From: a virus
Strand: one strand, 5' to 3'
Length of the DNA stretch: 28,310 nt
Virus record (IMG/VR): IMGVR_UViG_3300042905_005562
Span: 1-28,310 of that record
A program made the translations under genes and the position numbers. Below, in pieces: positions 3,469 to 28,309 of this stretch. The notes under the pieces were generated by a model, which was given only the letters and a program-made list of their open reading frames with translations, was not told the DNA's origin and made no database searches. The first letter of the stretch is position 1; each line of letters starts with the position of its first letter.

Positions 3469-3494
3469 GTTTCGAGTCTCCATTATTGCAGTGG

Positions 3495-3526
3495 AAAGAA
3501 AAGGGTGGTGGTTCGCACCACCACCC
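3495..3526 (-). terminator. Rho-independent terminator after the tmRNA
   Basis: On the minus strand a 9-bp perfect stem (GGGTGGTGG / CCACCACCC) with a 6-base loop is followed by TTTTCTTT. It lies just past the tmRNA coding piece. Only the minus direction has the U tract. The hairpin could alternatively be kept as the last helix of the coding piece. Confidence 0.75.
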
Positions 3527-3815
3527 CAGACCTTTCTGTTACCGAGCGGTCAACTCTTTGTACTCAATGTGCTTATTAGGCAGCGAGAGCCATAGGTGTA
3601 AATGAATCATCGTTTGCATTTACGTTTTTTGCGCTGATTGAGTCAGTCGCCTCACTGGTTGCTGTCAGGTTATTACTTGCCCTGTCGAAGCCAAATTCAT
3701 CCCCGTCAGATAGCCATCACGTACATTACTGCAGAGGTGATGGGCATTTGGTGGAGATGTCGGGGGTCGAACCCGAGTCCAGAACACCTTTAGTTGTCAG
3801 TTTACAACCATTATT
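3527..3815 (-). ncRNA. ssrA: Circularly permuted (two-piece) tmRNA
   Basis: Read on the minus strand the gene starts with the acceptor piece (about 3815 to 3749). It has a T stem-loop TCGGG-TTCGACC-CCCGA, acceptor strand CATCTCC and an encoded ACCA ending at 3749. An intervening segment (3748-3705) with a 7-bp hairpin follows. The coding piece then starts at 3704 with GGGGATG, which pairs with CATCTCC (one G-U), then the D-like AATTTGGCTTCGACA. The tag frame ends in a double stop TAATAA (3573-3578). The likely resume codon GCA at 3617-3615 gives ANDDSFTPMALAA, whose ALAA end is a typical ClpXP degron; an upstream GCA at 3632 would give AKNVN plus this tag. Piece outer boundaries are approximate. 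tmRNA with SmpB rescues stalled ribosomes. Confidence 0.9.
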
Positions 3816-3960
3816 TTTGATCTATTACTTGTCCAGACAAACCCCGCTCAATACCTTGTTGAATTTCTTTGTCAACATCGATGCCGAGTTCAGTCAATTC
3901 TTTCCTGACTTCTTTGTCAACATGCACTTCAACGGTATTTTCATTCACTTCAATCTTCAT
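3811..3960 (-). CDS. Small acidic phage protein, 49 aa
   Basis: The frame begins ATG at 3960 and encodes 49 residues, starting MKIEVNENTVEVHVDKEVRK and ending GQVIDQK. It is highly charged and probably helical in its second half (KELTELGIDVDKEIQQGIER). There is no recognised domain. It lies 11 bases downstream of the CDGSH-like gene and its stop abuts the 5' end of the tmRNA acceptor piece. The ribosome site is weak (AAAGA). Support comes from gap-filling position, orientation and plausible composition only. Confidence 0.6.
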   Translation of the reverse strand: MKIEVNENTVEVHVDKEVRKELTELGIDVDKEIQQGIERGLSGQVIDQK

Positions 3961-3971
3961 AATATTATTCT

Positions 3972-4130
3972 TTAGTCAATTAGAAACTGTGGTTTGGTTT
4001 GCTCATTCAACGACTTCTGCTGCTCCTCAAGATATCTCTTGTACTGCTCAGTTGTCATTGCATGCAAGCCAACGCAATAGCCAGTTGGACTGCGTCCGCA
4101 TGCGCATGGATATTGTTTCACTTCAGACAT
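3972..4130 (-). CDS. CDGSH-like cysteine mini-protein, 52 aa
   Basis: The ATG at 4130 is preceded by GGGAG at 6 bases. The protein has C9-x-C11-x2-S14-x4-C19-x-G21-x-H23 (CACGRSPTGYCVGLH), then a helical tail TEQYKRYLEEQQ. This spacing nearly equals the CDGSH [2Fe-2S] motif (CxCxxSxxxPxCDGxH) with one residue fewer between Ser and the third Cys and Val-Gly in place of Asp-Gly. It may bind an Fe-S cluster or zinc; that is inference. It lies just downstream of AhpD and rubredoxin, which fits a redox role. I know similar short CxCG...C...H proteins from phages, all uncharacterised. Confidence 0.75.
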   Translation of the reverse strand: MSEVKQYPCACGRSPTGYCVGLHAMTTEQYKRYLEEQQKSLNEQTKPQFLID

Positions 4131-4165: not shown

Positions 4166-4678
4166 TTAGCCAGCAAGAACTTTTGCGACTGAATTGACAA
4201 CTGCAGCAATACGACCGACGTCGCGGAGTTGCTCAACTGTCATACCCTCTTTCTTGAGAGTATCATAGTGCGCCTTTACACAGAAGTGGCATTTGCCTAC
4301 GATTGAGGCAGCGAGAGAATATGCTTCAAAATTGACCTTTGAAGTGCCACCGTGATTAATAATTCCATTCATACGAAGTAATGCAGGCAATCCTTTAAGC
4401 GCAGGATCATCAGCCATTTCAACGTATGGATACCAAACATTATTTTGAGCCATAATTGCAGCAGCAGTCAACGCAGCGTCCGCTTCCTTACGGTCCTCGA
4501 ACTCTGCGTCGATTGCTGTTGCTAATCGAGAATTACCTGCGGCAAATGCTGCTGCAAGTGCGCATCCTTGCGCAACCAATGGGTCAAGGGAACTGCGAAG
4601 TAACACTGCATCAAGATTCAACTTTGTATCTTTTGCGTAATCTGGTAGACCTTCTTTAACTACATTGACCCAATTCAT
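4166..4678 (-). CDS. ahpD: AhpD-like alkylhydroperoxidase / AhpC reductase
   Basis: A 170-residue all-alpha protein of the carboxymuconolactone decarboxylase/AhpD fold. Near the C-terminus FEAYSLAASIVGKCHFCVKAH carries the Glu-(11)-CxxC-xxx-His relay seen in Mycobacterium AhpD, followed by the family tail DVGRIAAVVNSVAKVLAG. AhpD reduces oxidised AhpC, using dihydrolipoamide-linked electrons in mycobacteria. The start ATG lies 7 bases after AAGGAGAT and overlaps the rubredoxin stop (ATGA). Its presence in the same transcript as AhpC and rubredoxin argues for a dedicated peroxide-reduction chain. Length is normal for the family (about 175). Confidence 0.92.
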   Translation of the reverse strand: MNWVNVVKEGLPDYAKDTKLNLDAVLLRSSLDPLVAQGCALAAAFAAGNSRLATAIDAEFEDRKEADAALTAAAIMAQNNVWYPYVEMADDPALKGLPALLRMNGIINHGGTSKVNFEAYSLAASIVGKCHFCVKAHYDTLKKEGMTVEQLRDVGRIAAVVNSVAKVLAG

Positions 4679-4827
4679 TCTTTTATCTCCTTCTCTTCAA
4701 ACAAGTCTTTCTCTGAGCGACATTCTGGACATTCAAAGTCATCAGTTAAACTTTCCCAATCTCCATATCTACCGTCATACTTCCATCCGCAAATAATGCA
4801 AACATGATCGACTTGTTTGTTAGACAT
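4675..4827 (-). CDS. Rubredoxin-like electron carrier
   Basis: A 50-residue protein with the rubredoxin layout: C10-x-x-C13-G at the first knuckle, an aromatic/Asp stretch (WKYDGRYGDW), and C33-P-x-C36 at the second, followed by SEKDLFEE, close to the GKDQFEE ending of classical rubredoxins. It should bind one iron in a Cys4 site and carry single electrons in the cytoplasm. The spacing between knuckles is shorter than in classical rubredoxins (19 residues between C13 and C33, versus about 29), so zinc binding is possible. The start ATG is at 4827 with AAAGGA upstream. The stop overlaps the ahpD start. Confidence 0.85.
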   Translation of the reverse strand: MSNKQVDHVCIICGWKYDGRYGDWESLTDDFECPECRSEKDLFEEKEIKE

Positions 4828-4830
4828 AAA

Positions 4831-5079
4831 TTAAGCGTCCTTTGGTACTTCCATGCAGCGATCAAACAAATAACGTCTTGCTTGACGCATTTCTGCATTT
4901 GTTAAAAAGCCATCACCATCCTTATCAGCACGATCAAAGAGACCCTTTGATACTGTGCAATAACGATTTACATCTTCAAATGAAACTTTGCCGTCCTTGT
5001 CAAAGTCATACTGAGCCACACGATCTTGAGCCATCGCTGGCGCAGATAACATCATCAATCCAATGATTAGTTTTTTCAT
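4831..5079 (-). CDS. Secreted EF-hand calcium-binding protein, 82 aa
   Basis: The N-terminus MKKLIIGLMMLSAPAMA is a clear signal peptide with an AxA cleavage site before Gln18. Two EF-hand loops follow: D25-F-D27-K-D29-G-K-V-S-F-E-D36 and D52-K-D54-G-D56-G-F-L-T-N-A-E63, separated by a helix. Cys41 and Cys75 could form a disulfide in the periplasm. AAGGAAAG precedes the ATG at 5079. The gene lies between ahpC (15 bases) and rubredoxin (3 bases), so it is cotranscribed with cytoplasmic redox genes although itself exported. The function is unknown; calcium sensing or envelope stabilisation are guesses. Confidence 0.88.
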   Translation of the reverse strand: MKKLIIGLMMLSAPAMAQDRVAQYDFDKDGKVSFEDVNRYCTVSKGLFDRADKDGDGFLTNAEMRQARRYLFDRCMEVPKDA

Positions 5080-5094
5080 TTAAGTTTCTTTCCT

Positions 5095-5679
5095 TTATTT
5101 TGAGAGAGTTGCTTCACCAACCTGACGATTGCACTGGCAAAGTTCACCCGTCTGCAAAGCATCGAGGATACGAAGTGTTTCCTCTGGATTGCGTCCGACG
5201 TTTAGATTATTCACAGTCACATGCTGAATGATATTGTCAGGATCGACAATGAATGTTGCACGAAGAGCAGCACCTGCTGGCTTGTAGAATACACCAAGTT
5301 GTTGAACCAGACTTTGTGTATCTTCGTCCCAAACATCTTCAAGGTCGCGTGCTGTATCAGCAAAGAACCAGCAAGTGGTTTTCTTTAGATCTTCGTGAGC
5401 ATTCTTCCATGCCAACTTACAGAACTCGTTGTCTGTTGAACCGATCAAAAGAACCGCATCGCGGTCAGCAAAGTCTGAATTCAACTTATCATAGGCAACG
5501 ATTTCTGTTGGGCAAACAAAGGTGAAGTCCTTTGGATAAAACACAACGACCTTCCACTTACCTTCAAAAGAAAGATCTGTAATCGTTTCAAAAGCATTAT
5601 CTGGCGTCAATGCTCCTGGCTTGACACCAGTAACTGCGAAATTCTTTACCTTATCTCCAACTGTCTTCATTCTATTCAT
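5095..5679 (-). CDS. ahpC: AhpC-type 2-Cys peroxiredoxin
   Basis: A 194-residue peroxiredoxin. The peroxidatic Cys56 is in DFTFVCPTE, the FIVDPDNIIQHVTVNN strand region is family-typical, and the C-terminal GELCQCNRQ has Cys181 and Cys183. A paired C-x-C resolving site is what mycobacterial AhpC uses with AhpD, and an ahpD gene lies downstream. It reduces H2O2, alkyl hydroperoxides and peroxynitrite. The start chosen is ATG at 5679, with GGAG 7 bases upstream; a TTG two codons earlier is less likely. It is the first gene of the cassette, and an upstream direct repeat (5701-5721) may regulate it. Confidence 0.95.
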   Translation of the reverse strand: MNRMKTVGDKVKNFAVTGVKPGALTPDNAFETITDLSFEGKWKVVVFYPKDFTFVCPTEIVAYDKLNSDFADRDAVLLIGSTDNEFCKLAWKNAHEDLKKTTCWFFADTARDLEDVWDEDTQSLVQQLGVFYKPAGAALRATFIVDPDNIIQHVTVNNLNVGRNPEETLRILDALQTGELCQCNRQVGEATLSK

Positions 5680-5700
5680 TTTCAAACTCCTGTATAATGA

Positions 5701-5721
5701 AAACCTATACGAAACCTATAC
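5701..5721 (-). promoter_or_regulatory. Direct repeat upstream of ahpC, possible operator
   Basis: Two perfect 10-base copies of AAACCTATAC (plus strand) lie at 5701-5710 and 5712-5721, an 11-base period equal to one helical turn. They sit about 20-40 bases upstream of the ahpC start in the 120-base gap before the membrane protein gene. I see no good sigma70 pair here, so a phage middle-type or activator-dependent promoter is possible. Confidence 0.4.
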
Positions 5722-5799
5722 ACAAACGTATATATGCAAAATGCTACTACAATTCATCGTTTTTGCGATAAATTAATTTAATCGAAATGATAGGTAAAA

Positions 5800-6153
5800 T
5801 TAATTGATTAAATTTTGTACGATAACTGCAACTGCCAACCAAACCCAAAGAGTGTTAAATCCAACCAATGTTGGGAGAAGTTTTTCATTTGATGCCCAAA
5901 TCAATGTCAAACTAGTTAGCAAAGCAAAAAAATAGAGCCACCAGATTTGTATTCCAAATACGAGCCCAGGAATAATAATGATTGCTTTTGCGAACCAACT
6001 TGCAGCCTCAACAATATTATATGGCTTCCAATATTCTCGAGTGAACCACATGTGGTAACAATCAATAATTTTTTGCCATCCTGTGAGAGCGTAGACAGTT
6101 CCGATTAAAAAAGCCCAAAGGGAAAACGTCCAAATGATTTGATCAAAAGTCAC
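5800..6153 (-). CDS. Small multi-pass membrane protein, 117 aa
   Basis: The frame starts with GTG at 6153, whose GTGA overlaps the stop of the upstream 54-residue gene. It encodes about four hydrophobic segments: residues 5-25 (WTFSLWAFLIGTVYALTGW), 54-68, 68-88 and 93-115, joined by short polar loops such as FTREYWKPYN. The inner-membrane location is clear from composition. No family recognised; Trp-rich character (9 Trp) is notable. A 120-base gap follows before ahpC. Confidence 0.75.
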   Translation of the reverse strand: MTFDQIIWTFSLWAFLIGTVYALTGWQKIIDCYHMWFTREYWKPYNIVEAASWFAKAIIIIPGLVFGIQIWWLYFFALLTSLTLIWASNEKLLPTLVGFNTLWVWLAVAVIVQNLIN

Positions 6154-12533: not shown

Positions 12534-13184
12534 TCAGACTCTGATCGTCTTACATTCCCCCAGAAATTCATTCTTCGCCGATCGGAGCATGAACGCAAAA
12601 TCTAGTTGAAAGATAATTCCCTCAGCCTGATGAACTTCGAGCAATTCAACAGGAATGTAATCATAATCTCGAAAAAATGTGAGATACTCAGAAATGTTCG
12701 GCGCACCTTGATTGTATTCAATCAATGGTGTTTCACAAAAAATCAATTCTGTCTTTCCCATGACTTTTTTTGCGGCAGAAAGAATATCCAATTCTGAACC
12801 TTGTGTATCAATTTTCAACAAATTGGGAACTGGAAGATCTTTATTTTCGATCATTTTGTCTAAAGTTGTGCATGACATCTTCACTGGAGTTTTGCCATCA
12901 TACCAAGTTGTTGTCTCTTTATAATATGAATCACCAGTATTGCATCCAGGATAGAATTCAACAAACTCACGACCTTCATTGGAAAGAACATTCAAGAAGA
13001 ATGAATGTCCTGTAACAATTAAATCAGACAAATAGTGAGCGTTTGCTTCAAAAAGATAAAATGATGATTCAGGCAATACCTCACGTTTCGCTTTATTACT
13101 CCATGAACCGTTGCATGCACCCACATCATAGCATATAGGAAATTGCATTCCTCTTGACTTTAAATGTTTTATAAACTCAATCAT
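12534..13184 (-). CDS. FkbM family SAM-dependent methyltransferase
   Basis: A 216-residue class I methyltransferase. It shows ICYDVGACNGSWSN as motif I, SSFYLFEANAHYL as the acidic motif II, and the FkbM hallmark LLKIDTQGSELDIL, with MSCTTLDKMIE before it. FkbM enzymes O-methylate sugars or small molecules and are common in glycan gene clusters. The ATG at 13184 overlaps the stop of the N-terminal carbamoyltransferase gene (ATGA), placing it as the last gene of that operon. The target is probably the same carbamoylated or glycosylated product (inference). Confidence 0.88.
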   Translation of the reverse strand: MIEFIKHLKSRGMQFPICYDVGACNGSWSNKAKREVLPESSFYLFEANAHYLSDLIVTGHSFFLNVLSNEGREFVEFYPGCNTGDSYYKETTTWYDGKTPVKMSCTTLDKMIENKDLPVPNLLKIDTQGSELDILSAAKKVMGKTELIFCETPLIEYNQGAPNISEYLTFFRDYDYIPVELLEVHQAEGIIFQLDFAFMLRSAKNEFLGECKTIRV

Positions 13185-14437
13185 ACAATTGCCTCGTTCA
13201 TAAAGTGTTCTATAGTTTGTTCCAATTCGTTTAAATCATATTCAGGACCAAGATATATTGTTTCCAGCCCTTGTGGTTTTTTAATCAATGTTCCTTGCAT
13301 TCTTTCTACGTTATAGTGATGAATGCCTAATCCGATTGAATGCGTCGCATCATTTGCAATCGGATCAACGAAAATGTTAAATTCTGGATGCTTCTCTTTA
13401 ATTATAGAAACTCCCAGAATATTTAAAGCGCAGCCACCACCAACAATCAAGTTTCTAATTTTAGAATTCTCTTTGATAAATTGTGCATGATGAAGAAAGA
13501 CTTTTTCCAATGCTCTTTGAACTTCATATGCCAGATCTGCCTTTTGTTGAAACGTTAATTCGTCAAAAAGTTCAGGATACAAATTGTAATTCAATTCTCT
13601 TCCGCAACCAAATAGATTGTTGTTTGAGTAGATGGTATCACCAACAAGAAATGGTGGCAAGTTATTGTCTGCCTTTCCATATGCTGATAATCCCATGACC
13701 TTTCCATATCCATTCGCTCCCATCTTAAGATGGCGTGTAATCGTTTCATACATGTTACCAATATCCATATGAGCCGAAGCATCAAACTTATATGGAATTT
13801 TATCAAATCCAATTTTAGGATCGATCAACTCACTTATTCCACCATTCGAACTATAAACAGGGATTGAATCTTTCACATAGACAGGACCGCACTGAGATTT
13901 CTTATAGAGATAATTTCTTCGATATCTTGAATCAATTTCTAAGATAGAAGTGTTCTCAGATCCACCAACCCCTAAATTGTTTTTAGGGTTTTGAATCACA
14001 TATCCAGAACCTAGCGCATCAACAATTAAGCAAACTGCTTCGTCAAATGGAGACATATAAAATGCAGATATCGCATGACTACAATGATGAGAGTATTTGG
14101 TGAAATCATTTTTAAGATTGATTGTTCCACGACGCTCGCTTGTTTCAATTATTTTACCAAACTCAAACATCTGAGTAATTTTATCATAGATCTGCATACA
14201 ACTCTTTTCTTCTGGTAAAAGAGTATTCATGGTTTTAAATCCATGAGCAACCAATAAATCTATTTTTTTGGTGATCTTATTGCGAATGTATTCAAATGGT
14301 TTTAAATTAAATAGCACATCATTCTTTTTACGAGTCGCTCTTTCTGCTTGCAAAAAGAAAATGAGTTTTTCATCTTCAAATAATGCTACAGAGGCATCAT
14401 GTCCAAGTGTTTGAATTGCTAGTGTGTAGTAACTCAT
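13181..14437 (-). CDS. Carbamoyltransferase N-terminal (Kae1-like) domain as a separate protein
   Basis: This 418-residue protein is the N-terminal ASKHA domain of the NodU/TobZ/CmcH family. It opens with LAIQTLGHDASVALFEDEKL, has the metal-binding region YSHHCSHAISAFYMSPFDEA, the signatures GKVMGLSAYGK and NLIVGGGCALN, and ends at YLGPEYDLNELEQ, the hinge where a C-terminal domain normally continues. Family members use carbamoyl phosphate and ATP to O-carbamoylate sugars or antibiotics. The missing C-terminal domain is encoded by the gene immediately upstream, with ATGA overlap. Together they would make about 603 residues, the usual family size. Confidence 0.9.
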   Translation of the reverse strand: MSYYTLAIQTLGHDASVALFEDEKLIFFLQAERATRKKNDVLFNLKPFEYIRNKITKKIDLLVAHGFKTMNTLLPEEKSCMQIYDKITQMFEFGKIIETSERRGTINLKNDFTKYSHHCSHAISAFYMSPFDEAVCLIVDALGSGYVIQNPKNNLGVGGSENTSILEIDSRYRRNYLYKKSQCGPVYVKDSIPVYSSNGGISELIDPKIGFDKIPYKFDASAHMDIGNMYETITRHLKMGANGYGKVMGLSAYGKADNNLPPFLVGDTIYSNNNLFGCGRELNYNLYPELFDELTFQQKADLAYEVQRALEKVFLHHAQFIKENSKIRNLIVGGGCALNILGVSIIKEKHPEFNIFVDPIANDATHSIGLGIHHYNVERMQGTLIKKPQGLETIYLGPEYDLNELEQTIEHFMNEAIV

Positions 14438-16390: not shown

Positions 16391-16466
16391 TGGTAGCGGG
16401 GGTTGGATTCGAACCAACGGAAACTGGATTATGAGTCCAGTGACTTGACCTCTAGTCTACCCCGCA
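16391..16466 (-). tRNA. tRNA with CAT anticodon (elongator Met or Ile2)
   Basis: Minus strand cloverleaf: acceptor TGCGGGG/CCCCGCT, D arm GACT-AGTC, anticodon arm CTGGA-CTCATAA-TCCAG, T arm GTTGG-TTCGAAT-CCAAC, encoded ACCA. Position 1-72 is a T-T mismatch. The anticodon stem lacks the three G-C pairs of initiator tRNA. Met and lysidine-modified Ile cannot be separated by eye. The upstream small gene ends inside its 5' acceptor strand. Confidence 0.9.
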
Positions 16467-22221: not shown

Positions 22222-22305
22222 TGGTGCCCACAGAGGGACTCGAACCCCCACGCTTTTGGCACTGGCTTCTAAGACCAGGGTGTCTACCAATTCCACCATG
22301 TGGGC
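22222..22305 (-). tRNA. tRNA-Leu (anticodon TAG)
   Basis: Class II tRNA on the minus strand: acceptor GCCCACA/TGTGGGC, anticodon loop CTTAGAA, long variable arm, T loop TTCGAGT, encoded ACCA. Reads CUA and probably other CUN codons. It lies between the JmjC-like and dioxygenase genes. Confidence 0.95.
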
Positions 22306-22306
22306 A

Positions 22307-22852
22307 TTATATTTCTTTCAAATGATATGCGATTGTGTACCTCATCTCATAAAAATCTCTACTTGGAGAACTTCCAAAGTGGACCATATTTGACGGAAAA
22401 AATACTGCAGTGTTCGGTATCGGATATACACTGTAAACACTATCGCTATTCATCACTTCTTCTGAATCTTCGTACCTATATCTATCAAAAAAGATTGTTT
22501 GACCGCCCCATTGATAGTCCCATGTTTTATTCGCGTAAAGAATAAAAGTGTAAGTATCTGTTGATTCACTATCAACATGAGGAGCACCATCTTGTAATGT
22601 TGATTGAGCGTTGGCAAGTATGCTTGTTGTGATAAATTTTTTTCCTGTTAACTCCTCAACAACGGAAAACACTTTCTTATTGAAGAAAGGTTCATCATCT
22701 AAACGCATCCCCCAAAATACTTTATGAGGACTATATTTGGGATCACTAACGCTCAACGCCCATTTGGGTTGTCTGAGATAACGATCGAGAATATCAAACG
22801 TCTCGGTATCTAAAACATCTTTGTATTGTTTAATTTTTTGTATGAATTCCAT
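22307..22852 (-). CDS. 2OG-Fe(II) dioxygenase (prolyl-hydroxylase-like)
   Basis: A 181-residue DSBH enzyme with HVDSESTDTYTFILYAN, YQWGGQTIFFDRYRYED, MVHFGSSPSRDF and MRYTIAYHL, supplying HxD, distal His and Arg. Its start MEFIQKIKQYKDVLD aligns with VDFLSQIKEFENVFN of the 16576 paralog. It stands alone between tRNA-Leu and tRNA-Ser. ATG at 22852. The gene is likely part of the same functional group as the other dioxygenases. Confidence 0.85.
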   Translation of the reverse strand: MEFIQKIKQYKDVLDTETFDILDRYLRQPKWALSVSDPKYSPHKVFWGMRLDDEPFFNKKVFSVVEELTGKKFITTSILANAQSTLQDGAPHVDSESTDTYTFILYANKTWDYQWGGQTIFFDRYRYEDSEEVMNSDSVYSVYPIPNTAVFFPSNMVHFGSSPSRDFYEMRYTIAYHLKEI

Positions 22853-22858
22853 AATTTT

Positions 22859-22948
22859 TGGCGGAAGGGGTGAGATTCGAACTCACGGTGAGGTTGCCCC
22901 CACGTCTGATTTCAAGTCAGGTGCCGTAAACCGCTTGGCTACCCTTCC
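22859..22948 (-). tRNA. tRNA-Ser (anticodon TGA)
   Basis: Minus strand class II tRNA: acceptor GGAAGGG/CCCTTCC, anticodon arm CTGA-CTTGAAA-TCAG, long variable arm, T loop TTCGAAT, encoded GCCA. Reads UCA. Confidence 0.95.
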
Positions 22949-22951
22949 GAA

Positions 22952-23311
22952 TTATTTCCTCAAACTGTGTCGAGTTGGTCTCCCATTTTCATCGACACAA
23001 ACAAAAACCATTTCTTCTATATTAACTATAATTCGTTGTGAAGTCAAGTCGCGCACTTGCACTTCTAGAGTGATACTAGTGCTTCCAACTTTCTTCAACG
23101 CAACTCCAATTTCAACAACATCACCCTGACGAGCAGGAGCAACAAAGTTGATCTCTGAAATACTCTTGGTCACAACACGTTTATGACGAGTTTCGATTGC
23201 AGCATATATAGCGGCTTCTTCGTCAATCCACTCCAAGCATCTTCCACCGAACAACGTATCATTCGCGTTCAGATCTTCAGGCTTAACCAACTTCCTTGTT
23301 AGAAATCTCAT
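22952..23311 (-). CDS. Hotdog-fold acyl-CoA thioesterase
   Basis: A 119-residue hotdog protein. It has VKPEDLNANDTLFGGRCLEWIDEEA (the family's central helix with the N-x-x-x-x-x-G-G-x-x-L-x-x-x-D pattern), VTKSISEINFVAPARQGD, and VGSTSITLEVQV. This is YciA-like: it hydrolyses acyl-CoA thioesters. ATG at 23311 after AGGTGA. It overlaps the upstream 115-residue gene by 29 bases and ends just before tRNA-Ser. In a phage it could redirect lipids or free CoA during infection (inference). Confidence 0.88.
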   Translation of the reverse strand: MRFLTRKLVKPEDLNANDTLFGGRCLEWIDEEAAIYAAIETRHKRVVTKSISEINFVAPARQGDVVEIGVALKKVGSTSITLEVQVRDLTSQRIIVNIEEMVFVCVDENGRPTRHSLRK

Positions 23312-23630
23312 TTGTCACCTTATTATACTCTTTCTGTATGAAAATATCAAGTGCCTCTACGATCTTGTCAATTCTATAAAATTGATTGTTCTTGGCTGCT
23401 TCTCGCGTGTGATTATTTAGATATGCTAAATCAAACAAAAGATTCTCAACAGTTGTTTCATTATTTCGCACACGTCGCAAGATTTCGCGATATATGTAAG
23501 CATTCTGAATCACTTGTTTATCGTGAGGAATGCCAGAAGATGATGCGCCTTTATTTTCTAGAGCATCACAAAGCATATCCACATGCGGCTGCAGATCTTC
23601 AAATCGTAATTGTTTTCCTGAACTTGACAT
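23283..23630 (-). CDS. Helical protein of unknown function, 115 aa
   Basis: MSSSGKQLRFEDLQPHVDML opens a wholly helical-looking protein with DKQVIQNAYIYREILRRVRN and RIDKIVEALDIFIQKEYNKV. No domain recognised. Starts at ATG 23630, just after the methyltransferase gene, and overlaps the thioesterase start by 29 bases, so it is cotranscribed with it. Hydrophilic, no signal peptide. Confidence 0.65.
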   Translation of the reverse strand: MSSSGKQLRFEDLQPHVDMLCDALENKGASSSGIPHDKQVIQNAYIYREILRRVRNNETTVENLLFDLAYLNNHTREAAKNNQFYRIDKIVEALDIFIQKEYNKVTNEISNKEVG

Positions 23631-23631
23631 A

Positions 23632-24378
23632 TTATTTTATCAACACATAAGCATAGTATAAATGCGCACGACTCTTGTAATGCTTGGCTTTATTTAAAAG
23701 CATTACTGTTAAAAAATGATATGCGCTTTCAGGAGGAATTTTATTCTCTCGTATATGTTGATGAATCTTTCGCATTGAGTGTATGCAGGAATCATAAACA
23801 TTCTGCACAATATCAATCTTTTCAACTACTCTAAAATATTTCAGAGCATGTTTCTCGTAAGGTTTAATCAACTCAGGTCTGTATGCATCGATGTACAGAA
23901 ACGTTCCTTCTGATTTTAAAACTCGATGAACAGAGGAAAAGAATCCCTCTATATTTCTGTAGCAATGAGATGATTCAACATTTATAACACAATCGAAAGA
24001 ATTCGATTCATATTTCGATAATGTTTGAGCATCATCAACTTCAAAATGAATACTTGAATGCGACTTGCGGCAAAAATCAATTGCCTTCTCTTCTAAATCA
24101 CAGGCATGAACTTCTGCGAAATTATAAGCAGTTTTTATTAGATTAGCGCCACCACCACGACCACAACCAACTTCTAAAATTTTTTTGCTTTCAGGATTTG
24201 AAATTCGATCTAAGAAATGACAATATAGACTTCCTGAAGAATCTAGAAATAGATGCGACGCTTTCTCATGAATTGGGTAATATCCATGATTCATGAAAGA
24301 AATATTTAAATCATCACCAAGCAATCCTGCAATTTTATCGTATGTGTCATACTTTGCAAGTATTCCATTATATTTCAT
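23632..24378 (-). CDS. Class I SAM-dependent methyltransferase
   Basis: A 248-residue protein with motif I ILEVGCGRGGG (residues 69-79), acidic motif II VHACDLEEKAIDF, motif III-like IHFEVDDAQTL, and the Methyltransf_11-type post-motif FDCVINVESSHCYRNIEGFF, then HRVLKSEGTFLYID. The C-terminal third is a helical cap (HQHIRENKIPPESAYHFL). It probably methylates a small molecule. ATG at 24378; the stop is 1 base before the next gene's ATG. Confidence 0.86.
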   Translation of the reverse strand: MKYNGILAKYDTYDKIAGLLGDDLNISFMNHGYYPIHEKASHLFLDSSGSLYCHFLDRISNPESKKILEVGCGRGGGANLIKTAYNFAEVHACDLEEKAIDFCRKSHSSIHFEVDDAQTLSKYESNSFDCVINVESSHCYRNIEGFFSSVHRVLKSEGTFLYIDAYRPELIKPYEKHALKYFRVVEKIDIVQNVYDSCIHSMRKIHQHIRENKIPPESAYHFLTVMLLNKAKHYKSRAHLYYAYVLIK

Positions 24379-24395
24379 AACAAATTAATTACTTT

Positions 24396-24725
24396 TTATG
24401 TCCACGGAAGCGGTTTTCGAGAAGTGCCGTCAATCAATCTTCCTTCAAGAGTTTCTTGGAGAAGGTTTTGCAATAATAGTTGCTCTTCTTCTAGATTTAA
24501 AGTTGATGTGATCCAAGTCAAGACATTAGACTCAGTTAAATCGTTATAGGCAACAAAGTTAGATGGATCTGCAGATGGCAAATCAAAAACATAAAGTCTA
24601 GAAAATTCTTTTCCAGCATCATCGTGAATTGTATATTTTGCACGAACTGTCTTTATGACATCACTCAACTCACCCTCAGATGGGGCTGTAATCATTTCTA
24701 TAATTTTCCAAGTAAATGTTGGCAT
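24396..24725 (-). CDS. Conserved phage protein of unknown function, 109 aa
   Basis: It begins MPTFTWKIIEMITAPSEGEL and ends GTSRKPLPWT. The block VAYNDLTESNVLTWITSTLN, Leu/Glu-rich helix and terminal PW fit a family I know from tailed phages without a confirmed role, where it is often near structural genes. AGGAG lies 7 bases before the ATG. It is followed by 17 bases before the methyltransferase. The function is not known. Confidence 0.7.
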   Translation of the reverse strand: MPTFTWKIIEMITAPSEGELSDVIKTVRAKYTIHDDAGKEFSRLYVFDLPSADPSNFVAYNDLTESNVLTWITSTLNLEEEQLLLQNLLQETLEGRLIDGTSRKPLPWT

Positions 24726-24752
24726 TTAAATGCTCCTAAAAAACTTATATAG

Positions 24753-25745
24753 TTAATTGAATGTGGCGAGGTGACAATTTTTACATATCTCGCTGTATGC
24801 CTGAAGAACCGTCTTTGCTCGTTTCTCACCCAACCAAACCTCTCTAATTGATTGTGTTTTTAAATCACCAAATTTATAATCGAAGTGATAATCGTTACAG
24901 CATAAGAAAGTATGTCCTGCAGAATTCACATTGAGCCATTCTTTAGAACGATCGCCACCATTATTGCAACCAGTAACTCGTTGAGTTTTTCTCAATTGTT
25001 TGATCCATGGCTTATTTGTAACGATATGATCAATTGTTCCAGCACGATCATAAAGATAATTCTTATGAACGTTGGTTTTAGGAAACATCTTTTTGCCAAG
25101 ATTAAATTGAGTTTCATGCTCGCCATGTTTTGAGTTTAAATCATATTGGTGCGATTCAAACTGCTCTCCTGTTGCAATGTATCCACCAGAAATTGGTTCT
25201 TGGTCGATTCCATTCACACCAATTTGAAGTTCGTCTCCTAGATGTTGTAATTGCTCTTGAGCATAATTTAAATTTTCCATCAGACGATCAAAATGATCTT
25301 CTGTGAATCCTGTTCGTTTTGCCCAGAGAGATTTTTCGAATGCAGGAACATTTAAACCAACATGAATGACCACATCTTTATATTCTTTTATGAGATCAAC
25401 TTTTTGCTTTGATAGTGGAATTCCATTACTTAAAACATAACATTTGAATGAATACTTTCTCAATAGCGCGAGCAATTCATCAAAATGCTTGTACAAAAGA
25501 ATTTCGTTATAGTGAGAGAGTGTCACCAGATTGAATAATGAATGAACAATGCCATCTGGTTTATTCTTTTCTTCGTAGATTTCTGACAGAATTTTATCTA
25601 CTAGTTCGATTGGCATGACCCCAGAACCTTCTTCGGGTTGGGGAAAATATTTAACTGGACAAAACCAACATTTTGCGTTACAATATCCGAATGGATCTAA
25701 TTGTAGAAATTTGATTTTGGTTTTGGCGAGGACATCAGAGAGCAT
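24753..25745 (-). CDS. Radical SAM/SPASM-like enzyme
   Basis: A 330-residue protein. The radical SAM cluster is DPFGYCNAKCWFCPVKY (CxxxCxxC, Cys22, Cys26, Cys29), with the usual YVLSNGIPLS and HVGLNVPAFEKSLW barrel strands. The C-terminal half ends in a SPASM-like set of Cys residues: TGCNNGGDRSKEWLN, LCCNDYHFDYKFGDL and ICKNCHLATFN. Such enzymes modify sugars, peptides or small molecules. The start is ATG at 25745 with AAGGAAA upstream; a TTG nine codons earlier is less likely. A 7-bp hairpin precedes the ribosome site. Confidence 0.85.
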   Translation of the reverse strand: MLSDVLAKTKIKFLQLDPFGYCNAKCWFCPVKYFPQPEEGSGVMPIELVDKILSEIYEEKNKPDGIVHSLFNLVTLSHYNEILLYKHFDELLALLRKYSFKCYVLSNGIPLSKQKVDLIKEYKDVVIHVGLNVPAFEKSLWAKRTGFTEDHFDRLMENLNYAQEQLQHLGDELQIGVNGIDQEPISGGYIATGEQFESHQYDLNSKHGEHETQFNLGKKMFPKTNVHKNYLYDRAGTIDHIVTNKPWIKQLRKTQRVTGCNNGGDRSKEWLNVNSAGHTFLCCNDYHFDYKFGDLKTQSIREVWLGEKRAKTVLQAYSEICKNCHLATFN

Positions 25746-25759
25746 ATATGTTTCCTTTT

Positions 25760-25779
25760 TTGTGAGAAACAACTCACAA
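25760..25779 (-). promoter_or_regulatory. Hairpin before the radical SAM ribosome site
   Basis: Minus strand TTGTGAG-TTGTTT-CTCACAA, 7-bp stem, followed by AAAAGGAAAC. No U tract follows, so it is not a terminator. It could cap the mRNA after tRNA-Arg processing or affect translation. Confidence 0.35.
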
Positions 25780-25803
25780 CAACTCTATATAGTCCTTTAA
25801 TAA

Positions 25804-25879
25804 TGGCACGCTCGGCAGGAATCGAACCTGCGACCTACTGCTTAGAAGGCAGTTGTTCTATCCCCTGAACTACGAGCGC
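25804..25879 (-). tRNA. tRNA-Arg (anticodon TCT)
   Basis: Minus strand: acceptor GCGCTCG/CGAGCGT (G1-U72), anticodon arm CTGC-CTTCTAA-GCAG, T loop TTCGATT, encoded GCCA. Reads AGA/AGG, codons frequent in AT-rich phage genes. Confidence 0.95.
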
Positions 25880-25883
25880 AAAA

Positions 25884-25957
25884 TGGAGCGGGATGAGAGA
25901 ATCGAACTCTCGACCGAAGATTGGAAATCTGCTGTTTTACCATTAAACTAATCCCGC
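25884..25957 (-). tRNA. tRNA-Gly (anticodon TCC)
   Basis: Minus strand: acceptor GCGGGAT/ATCCCGC, anticodon loop TTTCCAA, T loop TTCGATT, encoded TCCA. One weak pair (C-T) in the anticodon stem. Reads GGA/GGG. Confidence 0.93.
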
Positions 25958-25960
25958 ATC

Positions 25961-26045
25961 TGGTGCGACTGGTCGGACTCGAACCGACAAGGCTAATGCC
26001 GACAGATTTTAAGTCTGTTGAGTTTACCGATTTCTCCACAGTCGC
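25961..26045 (-). tRNA. tRNA-Leu (anticodon TAA)
   Basis: Minus strand class II tRNA: acceptor GCGACTG/CAGTCGC, anticodon arm ACAGA-CTTAAAA-TCTGT, long variable arm, T loop TTCGAGT, encoded ACCA. Reads UUA/UUG. Confidence 0.95.
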
Positions 26046-26051
26046 AAATCA

Positions 26052-26624
26052 TTATTCTTTTAGCGACTGCATAATATCATTGAAAACTTGACCCTGCTTA
26101 TCAGAAACAAGATCCCAAATATTATCAGACCAGAGATCCCAATATCGATCACTGTCAGTTTCTTCATTGAGTTCAGCAAGTTCAGGAACGGCTTCTTTCA
26201 TCATTTCCTCAATCTCACCTTCTTCGCCCCATTCACAACCATCAATCATACCATCTTTGTTGTAAACATATACACCAAAGAAGTTGGGCATCTCATCTTC
26301 ATAAAAAACAGAAGCGATGAAATCAGGATCAACTTTGGCAATCTGTTCAAAAAGCCACTCTATGCCTTTTTGTGGAAAACTCCAAGCAGAAGTTGTGTTG
26401 AAATAATCTTCTCCGCGATCTTCGAAGTAGCACCACTTCGGACCAACGTTTTCAATATTCCAGTCGTATTGATCTGTGATTTCTTTGTCAAGACCGAAGA
26501 TGTCACTGAACCATTCATATCCTTTATCTTCTGGACGAATGCGAGAGTAAAATTCGTTTAGATATGCTTTACCTGCATCATTGAGTTTCTCGAAACGAAC
26601 ATGAGTATTCACATGATTAGCCAT
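26052..26624 (-). CDS. Acidic phage protein, possibly YubB/DUF1281-like, 190 aa
   Basis: MANHVNTHVRFEKLNDAGKA opens an acidic protein with YDWNIENVGPKWCYFED, FNTTSAWSFPQKGIEWLF, and FGVYVYNKDGMIDGCEWGEE. The sequence W-x-x-E-N-x-G-x-K-W followed by an AWSxPxxxxxxLF block resembles the YubB ferredoxin-like domain proteins (DUF1281) of plasmids. That resemblance is by eye only. Starts at ATG 26624 with GGAG upstream, between tRNA-Pro and tRNA-Leu. Function unknown. Confidence 0.68.
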   Translation of the reverse strand: MANHVNTHVRFEKLNDAGKAYLNEFYSRIRPEDKGYEWFSDIFGLDKEITDQYDWNIENVGPKWCYFEDRGEDYFNTTSAWSFPQKGIEWLFEQIAKVDPDFIASVFYEDEMPNFFGVYVYNKDGMIDGCEWGEEGEIEEMMKEAVPELAELNEETDSDRYWDLWSDNIWDLVSDKQGQVFNDIMQSLKE

Positions 26625-26645
26625 AACAATCTCCAGTCATAAAAT

Positions 26646-26722
26646 TGGTCGGATATGCAAGATTCGAACTTGCGACCCCCTGCTCCCAAAGCAGGTGCAC
26701 TACCAGACTGTGCTAATATCCG
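26646..26722 (-). tRNA. tRNA-Pro (anticodon TGG)
   Basis: Minus strand: acceptor CGGATAT/ATATCCG, anticodon arm CCTGC-TTTGGGA-GCAGG, T loop TTCGAAT, encoded ACCA. Reads CCA/CCN. Confidence 0.95.
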
Positions 26723-26766
26723 AATTGTTTATATATTCTACTATAACAAACATCAAAAGTAAAGTG

Positions 26767-26994
26767 TTACTCTACAATTTCAATCTCACTTTCTGTAACT
26801 ACAGCAACTCTTGCACCACAAGGCAAGAGTGTTTTCTCATTTCCAGAATATACGACTTCACTTGGTCCATGAATCTTCACACGGTGACAATAAGTATTCT
26901 TCCTGCCTTCCTTGATGGTAAGCACAGGATTGTTTTCGTTGTTCTTTTTATTTGCACGAATGACGTGCTGATTGACATGAATATATTTTTTCAT
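26767..26994 (-). CDS. Small conserved phage protein, 75 aa
   Basis: The start chosen is ATG at 26994 (MKKYIHVNQHVIRANKKN), with GGAG 5 bases upstream; the ATG just before it at 26997 is also possible. The product continues with TYCHRVKIHGPSEVVYSGNE and ends CGARVAVVTESEIEIVE. I recognise this as a widespread short phage and plasmid protein of unknown function with a small beta fold. It follows tandem terminators, so a nearby promoter or readthrough would be needed. Confidence 0.75.
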   Translation of the reverse strand: MKKYIHVNQHVIRANKKNNENNPVLTIKEGRKNTYCHRVKIHGPSEVVYSGNEKTLLPCGARVAVVTESEIEIVE

Positions 26995-27003
26995 CATCAC
27001 TCC

Positions 27004-27032
27004 AAAAAAAGAGGGAGCACTTGGCTCCCTCT
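27004..27032 (-). terminator. Rho-independent terminator (second of a tandem pair)
   Basis: Minus strand AGAGGGAGC / GCTCCCTCT (9 bp, 5-base loop) followed by TTTTTT. Lies downstream of the Ala/Val-rich gene, after a first weaker terminator. Confidence 0.8.
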
Positions 27033-27044
27033 CTATCATATATT

Positions 27045-27079
27045 AAAACAGGCGTCGAAACAAACTTCGAACACCCGTT
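27045..27079 (-). terminator. Rho-independent terminator (first of a tandem pair)
   Basis: Minus strand stem AACGGGTGTTCGAA / TTCGACGCCTGTT: 13 pairs including two G-U and one T bulge, then TTTT. It begins 2 bases past the stop codon at 27081. Confidence 0.65.
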
Positions 27080-27080
27080 A

Positions 27081-27725
27081 CTATTTTCCCAATAGACTAT
27101 CGACCTTTGCTTCCGCAACTGCCAAACGTGCTTCTAGACCATCAAGAACTGGATCTGCAGGAGCAGCAACTGCAACTGCAAGTTCTTCCTTGACTTCTGG
27201 AGCAACTTCGGCACCTGTGGCGGCAGCAACAACTGCAGCAACAGCTTCTGTTGTGGCAGCAACTGCTTCAGCAGATGGAACTGGTGCTTCGGCAACTGCT
27301 TCCTTGATGAGCACAGCAACTGCTTCTGGATCCTTCACAACTTCTGGATCAGCAGCAACAACTGCAGCAACGGCAGCAGCAACAACAACTGCAACTTCTG
27401 GATTCTCAATTGCAGCAGCTTCATGTTGAGCATGAAGAACATCTTCAACAACAAGAACTGCATCTGAATCTTCAGCACTTGGTGAGAGAAGAACAACTTC
27501 TTCAACAGCGATAGTTGCAGCAGCTGCTGGAGCAGCAACGAGTGCAGCAACTTGTTCTTGTGTCTTAAGAGCAATCAATTGATCAACTTGAACTTCAACT
27601 ACTGAGAGTCTTTGATCGAATTCAGCAACATCATCGATAATATCTGTATTTGCAACTGTGCCAGTTAGTGTTGCTAACTTGGATTCAACAGCAGCGAGTC
27701 TTACGGCAAGATCGTGTAGTCTCAT
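27081..27725 (-). CDS. Ala/Val-rich low-complexity protein with coiled-coil ends, 214 aa
   Basis: The N-terminus MRLHDLAVRLAAVESKLATL and C-terminus GLEARLAVAEAKVDSLLGK are similar heptad-like helices. Between them is a long Ala/Val/Glu/Pro-rich region (runs such as VVVAAAVAAVVAADPEVV). The gene has a late promoter (27765-27772), a strong AGGAG at 8 bases and tandem terminators, so it is probably a highly expressed single late unit such as a virion decoration or accessory protein. There is no signal peptide. No family recognised. The opposite strand holds an open frame over the same bases, which is a composition artefact. Confidence 0.75.
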   Translation of the reverse strand: MRLHDLAVRLAAVESKLATLTGTVANTDIIDDVAEFDQRLSVVEVQVDQLIALKTQEQVAALVAAPAAAATIAVEEVVLLSPSAEDSDAVLVVEDVLHAQHEAAAIENPEVAVVVAAAVAAVVAADPEVVKDPEAVAVLIKEAVAEAPVPSAEAVAATTEAVAAVVAAATGAEVAPEVKEELAVAVAAPADPVLDGLEARLAVAEAKVDSLLGK

Positions 27726-27764
27726 TTGTCGGTCTCCTGGAGGGTGTTAGTTCGAATACAAACC

Positions 27765-27772
27765 TATTTATC
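27765..27772 (-). promoter_or_regulatory. T4-type late promoter GATAAATA
   Basis: Minus strand GATAAATA at 27772-27765, about 40 bases before the ATG at 27725, with AGGAG between. It matches NATAAATA and stands in intergenic DNA, the best-placed late motif in the window. Confidence 0.65.
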
Positions 27773-27812
27773 CTGAAGATTTAAGAATTACCGTTAAGAT
27801 TATATTAAATGT

Positions 27813-27899
27813 TGGTGGAAGGCAGTGTATTCGAAACACATTCCCAAAGGGAACCATCTGTTTAGCAAACAGCGACAGATCCTCTCTGCTTTACCTTCC
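27813..27899 (-). tRNA. tRNA-Ser (anticodon GCT)
   Basis: Minus strand class II tRNA: acceptor GGAAGGT/GCCTTCC, anticodon arm CTGT-TTGCTAA-ACAG, long variable arm, T loop TTCGAAT, encoded ACCA. Reads AGC/AGU. Confidence 0.95.
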
Positions 27900-27903
27900 A
27901 AAA

Positions 27904-27980
27904 TGGCGACTCGGATGGGGCTCGAACCCACGACCTCATGCGTGACAGGCATGTGAACTAACCAACTGTTCTACCGAGCC
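27904..27980 (-). tRNA. tRNA-Asp (anticodon GTC)
   Basis: Minus strand: acceptor GGCTCGG/CCGAGTC (one G-U), anticodon arm ATGC-CTGTCAC-GCAT, T loop TTCGAGC, encoded GCCA. Reads GAC/GAU. Confidence 0.95.
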
Positions 27981-27985
27981 AAAAC

Positions 27986-28060
27986 TGGTGCGCGATGAGA
28001 GGGTCGAACTCCCGACATTTGCCGTGTAAAGGCACTACTCTACCACTGAGTTAATCGCGC
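27986..28060 (-). tRNA. tRNA-Val (anticodon TAC)
   Basis: Minus strand: acceptor GCGCGAT/ATCGCGC, anticodon arm TGCC-TTTACAC-GGCA, T loop TTCGACC, encoded ACCA. Reads GUA/GUN. Confidence 0.95.
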
Positions 28061-28066
28061 ATAAAC

Positions 28067-28141
28067 TGGAGTTGCGGACTGGACTCGCACCAGCATAAAA
28101 GAGTTTTGCAGACTCTTGCATAACTTTTCTGCCACCGCAAC
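28067..28141 (-). tRNA. tRNA-Cys (anticodon GCA)
   Basis: Minus strand: acceptor GTTGCGG/CCGCAAC, anticodon arm AGAGT-CTGCAAA-ACTCT, T loop TGCGAGT (T54 to G, unusual), encoded TCCA. Reads UGC/UGU. Confidence 0.92.
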
Positions 28142-28145
28142 AAAA

Positions 28146-28231
28146 TGGTGGGTGAAGTAGGATTCGAACCTACTCAGCCAATGGCAGCGGATTTACAGTC
28201 CGACGCGACTCTCCAACTTCGCCGTTCACCC
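28146..28231 (-). tRNA. tRNA-Tyr (anticodon GTA)
   Basis: Minus strand class II tRNA: acceptor GGGTGAA/TTCACCC, anticodon arm CGGA-CTGTAAA-TCCG, long variable arm, T loop TTCGAAT, encoded ACCA. Reads UAC/UAU. Confidence 0.95.
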
Positions 28232-28235
28232 AATA

Positions 28236-28309
28236 TGGCTGAGGAGCATGGATTCGAACCACGATAAGCAGGATCAAAACCTGCTGTCCTGCCGTTAGAC
28301 GACTCCTCA
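28236..28309 (-). tRNA. tRNA-Gln (anticodon TTG)
   Basis: Minus strand: acceptor TGAGGAG/CTCCTCA, anticodon arm GCAGG-TTTTGAT-CCTGC, T loop TTCGAAT, encoded GCCA. Reads CAA/CAG. The array probably continues past the window end. Confidence 0.95.

Follow-up and report, generated by a model that had tools for sequence, protein, structure and literature searches.

The locus described here raises the question of whether a phage may carry a working peroxidase system of its own and, if so, whether the electrons that recharge it and the regulator that controls it belong to the phage or to the host. The window, that is, the whole stretch of DNA analysed, is a 28,310-base fragment (IMG/VR record IMGVR_UViG_3300042905_005562), which carries on its minus strand, at 4166-5679, a tight cluster in the order AhpC, EF-hand, rubredoxin, AhpD. 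The genes in and beside the cluster are as follows:

5095-5679, minus strand: AhpC-type peroxiredoxin with a C-terminal C-x-C (Pfam AhpC-TSA, 81.3 bits; also by residues and PDB match)
4831-5079, minus strand: small EF-hand protein with a signal-peptide-like N-terminus (Pfam EF-hand_1, 39.6 bits, in two stretches)
4675-4827, minus strand: loop-shortened rubredoxin, C-x2-C-x19-C-x2-C (Pfam Rubredoxin PF00301, 29.0 bits, cut-off 23)
4166-4678, minus strand: AhpD, a predicted C-x-x-C disulfide reductase (Pfam CMD PF02627, 40.3 bits, cut-off 23; also by residues and fold)
3972-4130, minus strand: 52-residue mini-protein with C-x-C-G-R-S-P-x-G-x-C-x-G-x-H, a neighbour judged to lie outside the peroxidase system
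3485-3849, minus strand: permuted beta-type tmRNA (ARAGORN, 3485-3841; Rfam beta_tmRNA, 117.9 bits at 3500-3849), downstream of the cluster and outside the peroxidase system

The AhpC reading frame is listed as 5095-5685, the likely start being the ATG at 5679 behind AGGAG. By coordinates, a gap of 15 nt separates AhpC from the EF-hand gene and one of 3 nt separates the latter from rubredoxin, while rubredoxin and AhpD overlap by 4 nt, and these junctions suggest a single transcript for the four genes. The original prediction of four adjacent, coupled genes is confirmed, as all four reading frames are present, each above its curated Pfam cut-off, and the C-x-C resolving pair that it ascribed to AhpC is both present (Cys181 and Cys183) and conserved. 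PhoH and exonuclease genes lie near the cluster; the best matches of the exonuclease, at about 45% identity, are cyanophages that we take to be T4-like, and the two genes together point to a T4-like affinity of the window. The tmRNA, which in the window encodes the tag ANDDSFTPMALAA, occupies the same locus in 20 of 20 relatives tested, with variable tags, and the presence of a beta-type tmRNA near the cluster suggests a betaproteobacterial host. Elsewhere the window holds twelve tRNA genes (16391-16466 and 22222-28309, minus strand), mostly towards its end, and a Nol-like carbamoyltransferase gene (13181-14437, minus strand; phrog_1601).

The PxxxTxxC motif and catalytic arginine of AhpC (P, T, Cp and R) are kept in all 112 phage sequences and the C-x-C in 111, the remaining one being a gap, and E118, C130, C133 and H137 of AhpD are invariant in 101/101 phage sequences, L160 (see below) included. 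The best PDB sequence matches for both are Mycobacterium tuberculosis proteins (2bmx for AhpC; 1gu9 and 1knc for AhpD), and the predicted AhpD model (pLDDT 88) appears to have the same fold as 1knc (TM 0.87), with divergent sequences in which the C-x-x-C reads C-H-F-C in the phage versus C-S-H-C in M. tuberculosis. Against the NCBIfam ahpD model TIGR00777, AhpD scored 128 bits, under the cut-off of 192, and AhpC, at 109 bits, missed the cut-off of 272 for the equivalog TIGR03137, presumably the AhpF-linked type of AhpC. Median pairwise dN/dS is 0.103 for AhpC and 0.105 for AhpD, as compared with 0.054 for the exonuclease, 0.073 for PhoH, 0.115 for a dehydrogenase and 0.508 for a glycine-zipper gene; with values of about 0.10, AhpC and AhpD are under purifying selection. 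Host-like in sequence, set among phage genes and kept by selection, the ahpC-ahpD pair fits the description of a phage auxiliary metabolic gene.

IMG/VR holds at least 598 relatives of AhpD and at least 600 of AhpC. The best 80 of each gave, once 15 repeat contigs and the window's own copy (L001) had been removed, 143 distinct contigs, a set that represents the nearest relatives of the window proteins and not a random sample. AhpC and AhpD occur together on 118 of these contigs, on the same strand in 118/118; AhpC stands alone on 17 and AhpD alone on eight, in which AhpC may be cut off, because the contigs start within 1 kb upstream of AhpD. Among these nearest relatives, where 2.5 kb of flank was available, the 2.5 kb upstream of AhpD include AhpC in 61/61 loci and the 2.5 kb downstream of AhpC include AhpD in 53/65, AhpD being farther away in two of the 12 exceptions (L140 and L150). 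Judged by eye, the AhpC-AhpD gap in L051, L139, L063 and L145 holds TerC-like membrane, CxxCH c-type-cytochrome-like and class II aldolase-like proteins, and in L145 (5010-7484) AhpD is followed by a further AhpC match. Of the 143 contigs, 11 carry all four genes and 10 show the window's order; this recurrence, which had been proposed as a check, speaks against a chance arrangement. Eight of the ten leave no room for another gene, and in the other two AhpC and the EF-hand gene are about 570 nt apart; in four of the ten (L002, L003, L004 and L085) AhpC is near-identical to the window's. Where the locus is complete in a T4-like contig (30 cases), AhpD is present in 21 (and missing from nine), the EF-hand gene in 25, the CDGSH-like mini-protein in 19 and rubredoxin in 15; AhpD and rubredoxin are both present in ten, AhpD only in 11, rubredoxin only in five and neither in four, a distribution that shows no clear replacement of AhpD by rubredoxin. 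Rubredoxin is thus missing from 15 of the 30 complete same-clade loci, and also from 16/18 long phage records. AhpC or AhpD lies within 3 kb of 65 of 80 EF-hand relatives (the best 80 of 145; 37/41 with full flanks), and from the counts across loci AhpC-AhpD appears to be the core, with the EF-hand gene going with the locus and rubredoxin less so. Among 20 records checked whole, AhpD is present in four, the others being fragments or true absences; in a phage collection of 50,697 records no AhpD match was found at E 1e-5, and AhpC matches occur in 19 records, all under 60% identity. On the sequence evidence, the ahpC-ahpD pair is genuine and frequent in uncultured phages.

The nearest cellular relatives found for phage AhpC and AhpD are Burkholderiales proteins. 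For AhpD, the best 80 of 225 matches in a genome scan are nearly all titled Burkholderiales, at 51-61% identity, although the scan is confined to species that share exact peptides, so that nearer cellular relatives may have escaped it; two further draws, of 300 and 299 genomes, yielded 43 and 22 AhpD matches, the closest at 60% identity. In trees with more remote cellular sequences as the root, phage AhpD forms a single clade adjoining Burkholderiales (30 rows; SH-aLRT 82, moderate), as does phage AhpC (16 rows; SH-aLRT 100). L160 (JAURFW010000053.1), a contig titled as a Bacteroidota MAG, falls within the phage clade and is probably a fragment of a phage that was binned in error; it was counted as phage in the 30-row AhpD tree, and in another AhpD tree, where it was labelled cellular, the phage label needs two changes. 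AhpC is near AhpD in 78 of 80 cellular loci, the other two beginning less than 200 nt before AhpD, and in 40/40 loci of a second cellular set, and no rubredoxin, EF-hand or CDGSH-like neighbour was matched in the 80 loci, which are mostly from Burkholderiales. Because tree distances of phage AhpC and AhpD correlate weakly (Mantel r 0.26; 91 sequences; 0/999 permutations as high), swaps or uneven rates, and with them partly separate histories of the pair, are likely.

The region upstream of ahpC bears on the control of the operon and contains the following elements:

5768-5804, minus strand: 37-nt block similar to the consensus of the E. coli OxyR operator, overlapping the 3' end of an ORF at 5800-6153
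5735-5767, minus strand: 33-nt spacer of variable sequence and nearly fixed length, from a comparison of 19 distinct sequences
5729-5736, minus strand: CATATATA, a candidate -10 box, its TATATA invariant in 17/17 chosen upstream regions
5701-5721, minus strand: tandem repeat of GTATAGGTTTC, presumably part of the 5' leader, in single copy in the window

Besides the TATATA, the 17 chosen upstream regions share a ribosome site with an invariant ACAGGAGT and a conserved AT-rich block further up. The window contains three copies of CATATATA versus 0.93 expected, and 32 viral contigs share a 20-mer of the tandem GTATAGGTTTC repeat, which in 32/32 precedes the AhpC match by 39-48 nt. The T4 late-promoter motif TATAAATA was rejected as a candidate, with one copy in the window versus 1.41 expected. 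Across 19 distinct relatives, the most common base of the 37-nt block agrees with the E. coli OxyR operator consensus at 15 of 20 positions, and the window's block, which is identical to that of L002, agrees at 14. A TATATA box is present in 23 of 29 T4-like upstreams, where the block copies agree with the consensus at 12-16 of 20 positions; the six upstreams without the box score 10-12. With those six dropped beforehand, the distance from block to TATATA in the 19 distinct sequences is 33 nt in 16, 34 nt in two and 55 nt in one, and median identity is 68% in the block and 39% in the spacer. Since the length of the spacer is fixed while its sequence is free, the block suggests an activator site phased to the promoter.

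A match to the OxyR consensus was counted as passing if it was equalled in no more than 5 of 100 dinucleotide shuffles. By this measure the T4-like phage ahpC upstreams, which are related and were deduplicated at 85%, gave a mean z of 2.13, with 11/20 passing and 9/20 not, Burkholderiales ahpC upstreams a mean z of 1.39 (12/38 passing), other phages outside the T4-like set 0.62 (7/72), and the upstreams of four control genes about zero (1/51). A phage-encoded LysR regulator was also considered, and no LysR-type gene was found in eight phage records, which points to a host regulator. We infer that the operon is controlled by a host OxyR-type regulator through the 37-nt block, and the OxyR-like block, if real, would fit a peroxide response. 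In Burkholderia thailandensis, ahpC and ahpD have consecutive locus tags and OxyR binds the ahpC promoter (PMC6626918). However, OxyR is described there as a repressor of ahpC (PMC6626918), whereas the phage layout suggests activation. The chances are about evenly divided as to whether the block is instead an element of a phage promoter, or is bound by some regulator other than OxyR, whether of LysR type or not, as the partial resemblance of the box-bearing copies would allow; a general phage promoter is ruled against because the block pattern occurs once in the window, and a regulator other than OxyR must be set against the near absence of OxyR-like matches in control upstreams of the same phages, the eight records without a LysR-type gene and the binding of OxyR at the ahpC promoter of the related cellular pair (PMC6626918).

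The enzymology of the pair may be modelled on that of B. thailandensis, from which the chemistry is taken by analogy. The B. thailandensis proteins are like the phage pair in having two C-terminal resolving cysteines in AhpC and a C-x-x-C in AhpD; its AhpC uses Cys57 together with either Cys171 or Cys173, and electrons pass along the route NADH-Lpd-SucB-AhpD-AhpC, with TrxC working too (PMC6626918). Reduction of AhpD by lipoamide proteins is also stated in a review (PMC8945050). The model proposes that the peroxidatic Cys56 of phage AhpC would reduce H2O2 or organic peroxides, that the oxidised enzyme would form a disulfide of Cys56 with Cys181 or Cys183, and that phage AhpD would re-reduce it through Cys130-Cys133. 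Host lipoylated dehydrogenase complexes and Lpd would then recharge AhpD at the expense of NADH, and in phages without AhpD the host thioredoxin could serve instead, such that the phage would supply the peroxidase and adaptor only. In 18 long phage records, some of which may be fragments, no lipoyl domain was found and no Pyr_redox_2 reductase above cut-off, with one short match below it; a second set of eight phage records, four of them new, likewise held no such reductase above cut-off. As neither a lipoyl domain nor a reductase was found, in records that may be fragments, the host is the most likely source of the electrons. Phage ahpC-ahpD probably functions as a peroxidase system that depends on the host for its reduction, and we infer that it is active during infection. 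It is possible, though improbable, that the function of the pair is thiol-redox control, or protection against a host defence that works through redox chemistry, and not the bulk removal of peroxide, AhpC perhaps acting as a chaperone; such a role is mentioned for Prx1-type enzymes (PMC8945050) and would accommodate the nine complete loci of 30 in which AhpC lacks AhpD, but every peroxidase residue is retained.

Still less likely is a path encoded wholly by the phage, in which a reductant would feed rubredoxin and AhpD and, through them, AhpC, as the original prediction had proposed. Of that interpretation, AhpC with an AhpD partner, the shared gene order and purifying selection stand, whereas the complete electron path does not, given the long records in which neither lipoyl domain nor reductase above cut-off was found. 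The rubredoxin has two C-x-x-C knuckles, the four cysteines of which are invariant in 15/15, and a loop that falls some ten residues short of the classical length, and it aligns best to the 39-residue entry 1spw. Its median dN/dS of 0.265 suggests function, but for a role as carrier to AhpC its position between AhpC and AhpD in the window would be the one argument. The five complete loci of 30 with AhpC and rubredoxin but no AhpD, which would suit such a path, are set against 11 with AhpD and no rubredoxin and four with neither. Moreover, rubredoxin has AhpC or AhpD within 3 kb in 38 of 80 loci (the best 80 of 300; 20/41 with full 3-kb flanks) and lacks both in the other 42 (21/41), and reduction of a disulfide by a one-electron carrier would be unusual. 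The EF-hand protein (median dN/dS 0.203), whose N-terminus looks by eye like a signal peptide, appears to be exported and is probably in another compartment than AhpC and AhpD.

The mini-protein at 3972-4130 was likewise considered as part of an electron path and rejected, since AhpC or AhpD lies within about 4 kb in only 21/74 family loci; the loci of six further members carry AhpC or AhpD. It resembles CDGSH iron-sulfur proteins in having three cysteines and one histidine in a short motif ending in G-x-H. However, the canonical motif is C-x-C-x8-C-D-G-[SAT]-H, and the spacing here, one residue shorter, is C-x-C-x7-C-x3-H in 73/73 members matching a looser motif. The full motif is invariant in 33 aligned members, none of which matched the CDGSH Pfam model, so that the earlier description of the protein as CDGSH-like does not hold at the level of the family. 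No related PDB match was found by profile or fold (AlphaFold model pLDDT 80.9). With at least 555 relatives and a median dN/dS of 0.295, the protein belongs, to judge from its relatives (L297-L370 among them), to an independent and widespread small phage family, possibly a new metal-binding mini-protein. That the ahpC-ahpD genes are passengers or host contamination with no role in infection is very improbable, for although the window, like its near relatives, comes from metagenomes and the phage collection gave no AhpD match at E 1e-5, the phage clades are separate from the cellular ones and under purifying selection, PhoH, exonuclease and tmRNA are neighbours in T4-like relatives, and, as a weaker argument, terminase-family matches occur in 11/18 long records, three at or near PhoH, with a model that also matched 11/14 cellular controls.

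The AhpC-AhpD enzyme system itself is already known. The B. thailandensis system is cellular, and the phage pair has the rubredoxin, EF-hand and CDGSH-like genes as neighbours. In the open-access literature searched, a virus-encoded ahpC appeared in one passage, on putative Microcystis viruses, and the available part of that report names the gene once, with no AhpD, operon or operator (PMC12542629); no description of a phage ahpC-ahpD operon or its operator was found in the same open-access literature. Based on the genes, residues, linkage, selection, clades and predicted AhpD fold, we consider it quite probable that the locus is a phage form of the Burkholderiales-type ahpC-ahpD with two small accessory genes between, whose peroxidase would be recharged by the host and may be controlled by a host OxyR-type regulator. 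The broader proposal, that in a large group of uncultured phages, with betaproteobacterial hosts in at least some cases, an ahpC operon inducible by peroxide is read by host OxyR and its peroxidase paid for through host lipoyl complexes, is tentative, the balance tilting somewhat against it. If the pair is active, infections of a kind barely represented in phage collections would repeatedly require the removal of peroxide. If the broader proposal is true, the phage would sense the oxidative state of the cell through the host's own sensor and deploy its own peroxidase, and a phage-borne operon under the command of a host stress regulator would tie phage gene expression directly to the cell's oxidative state.
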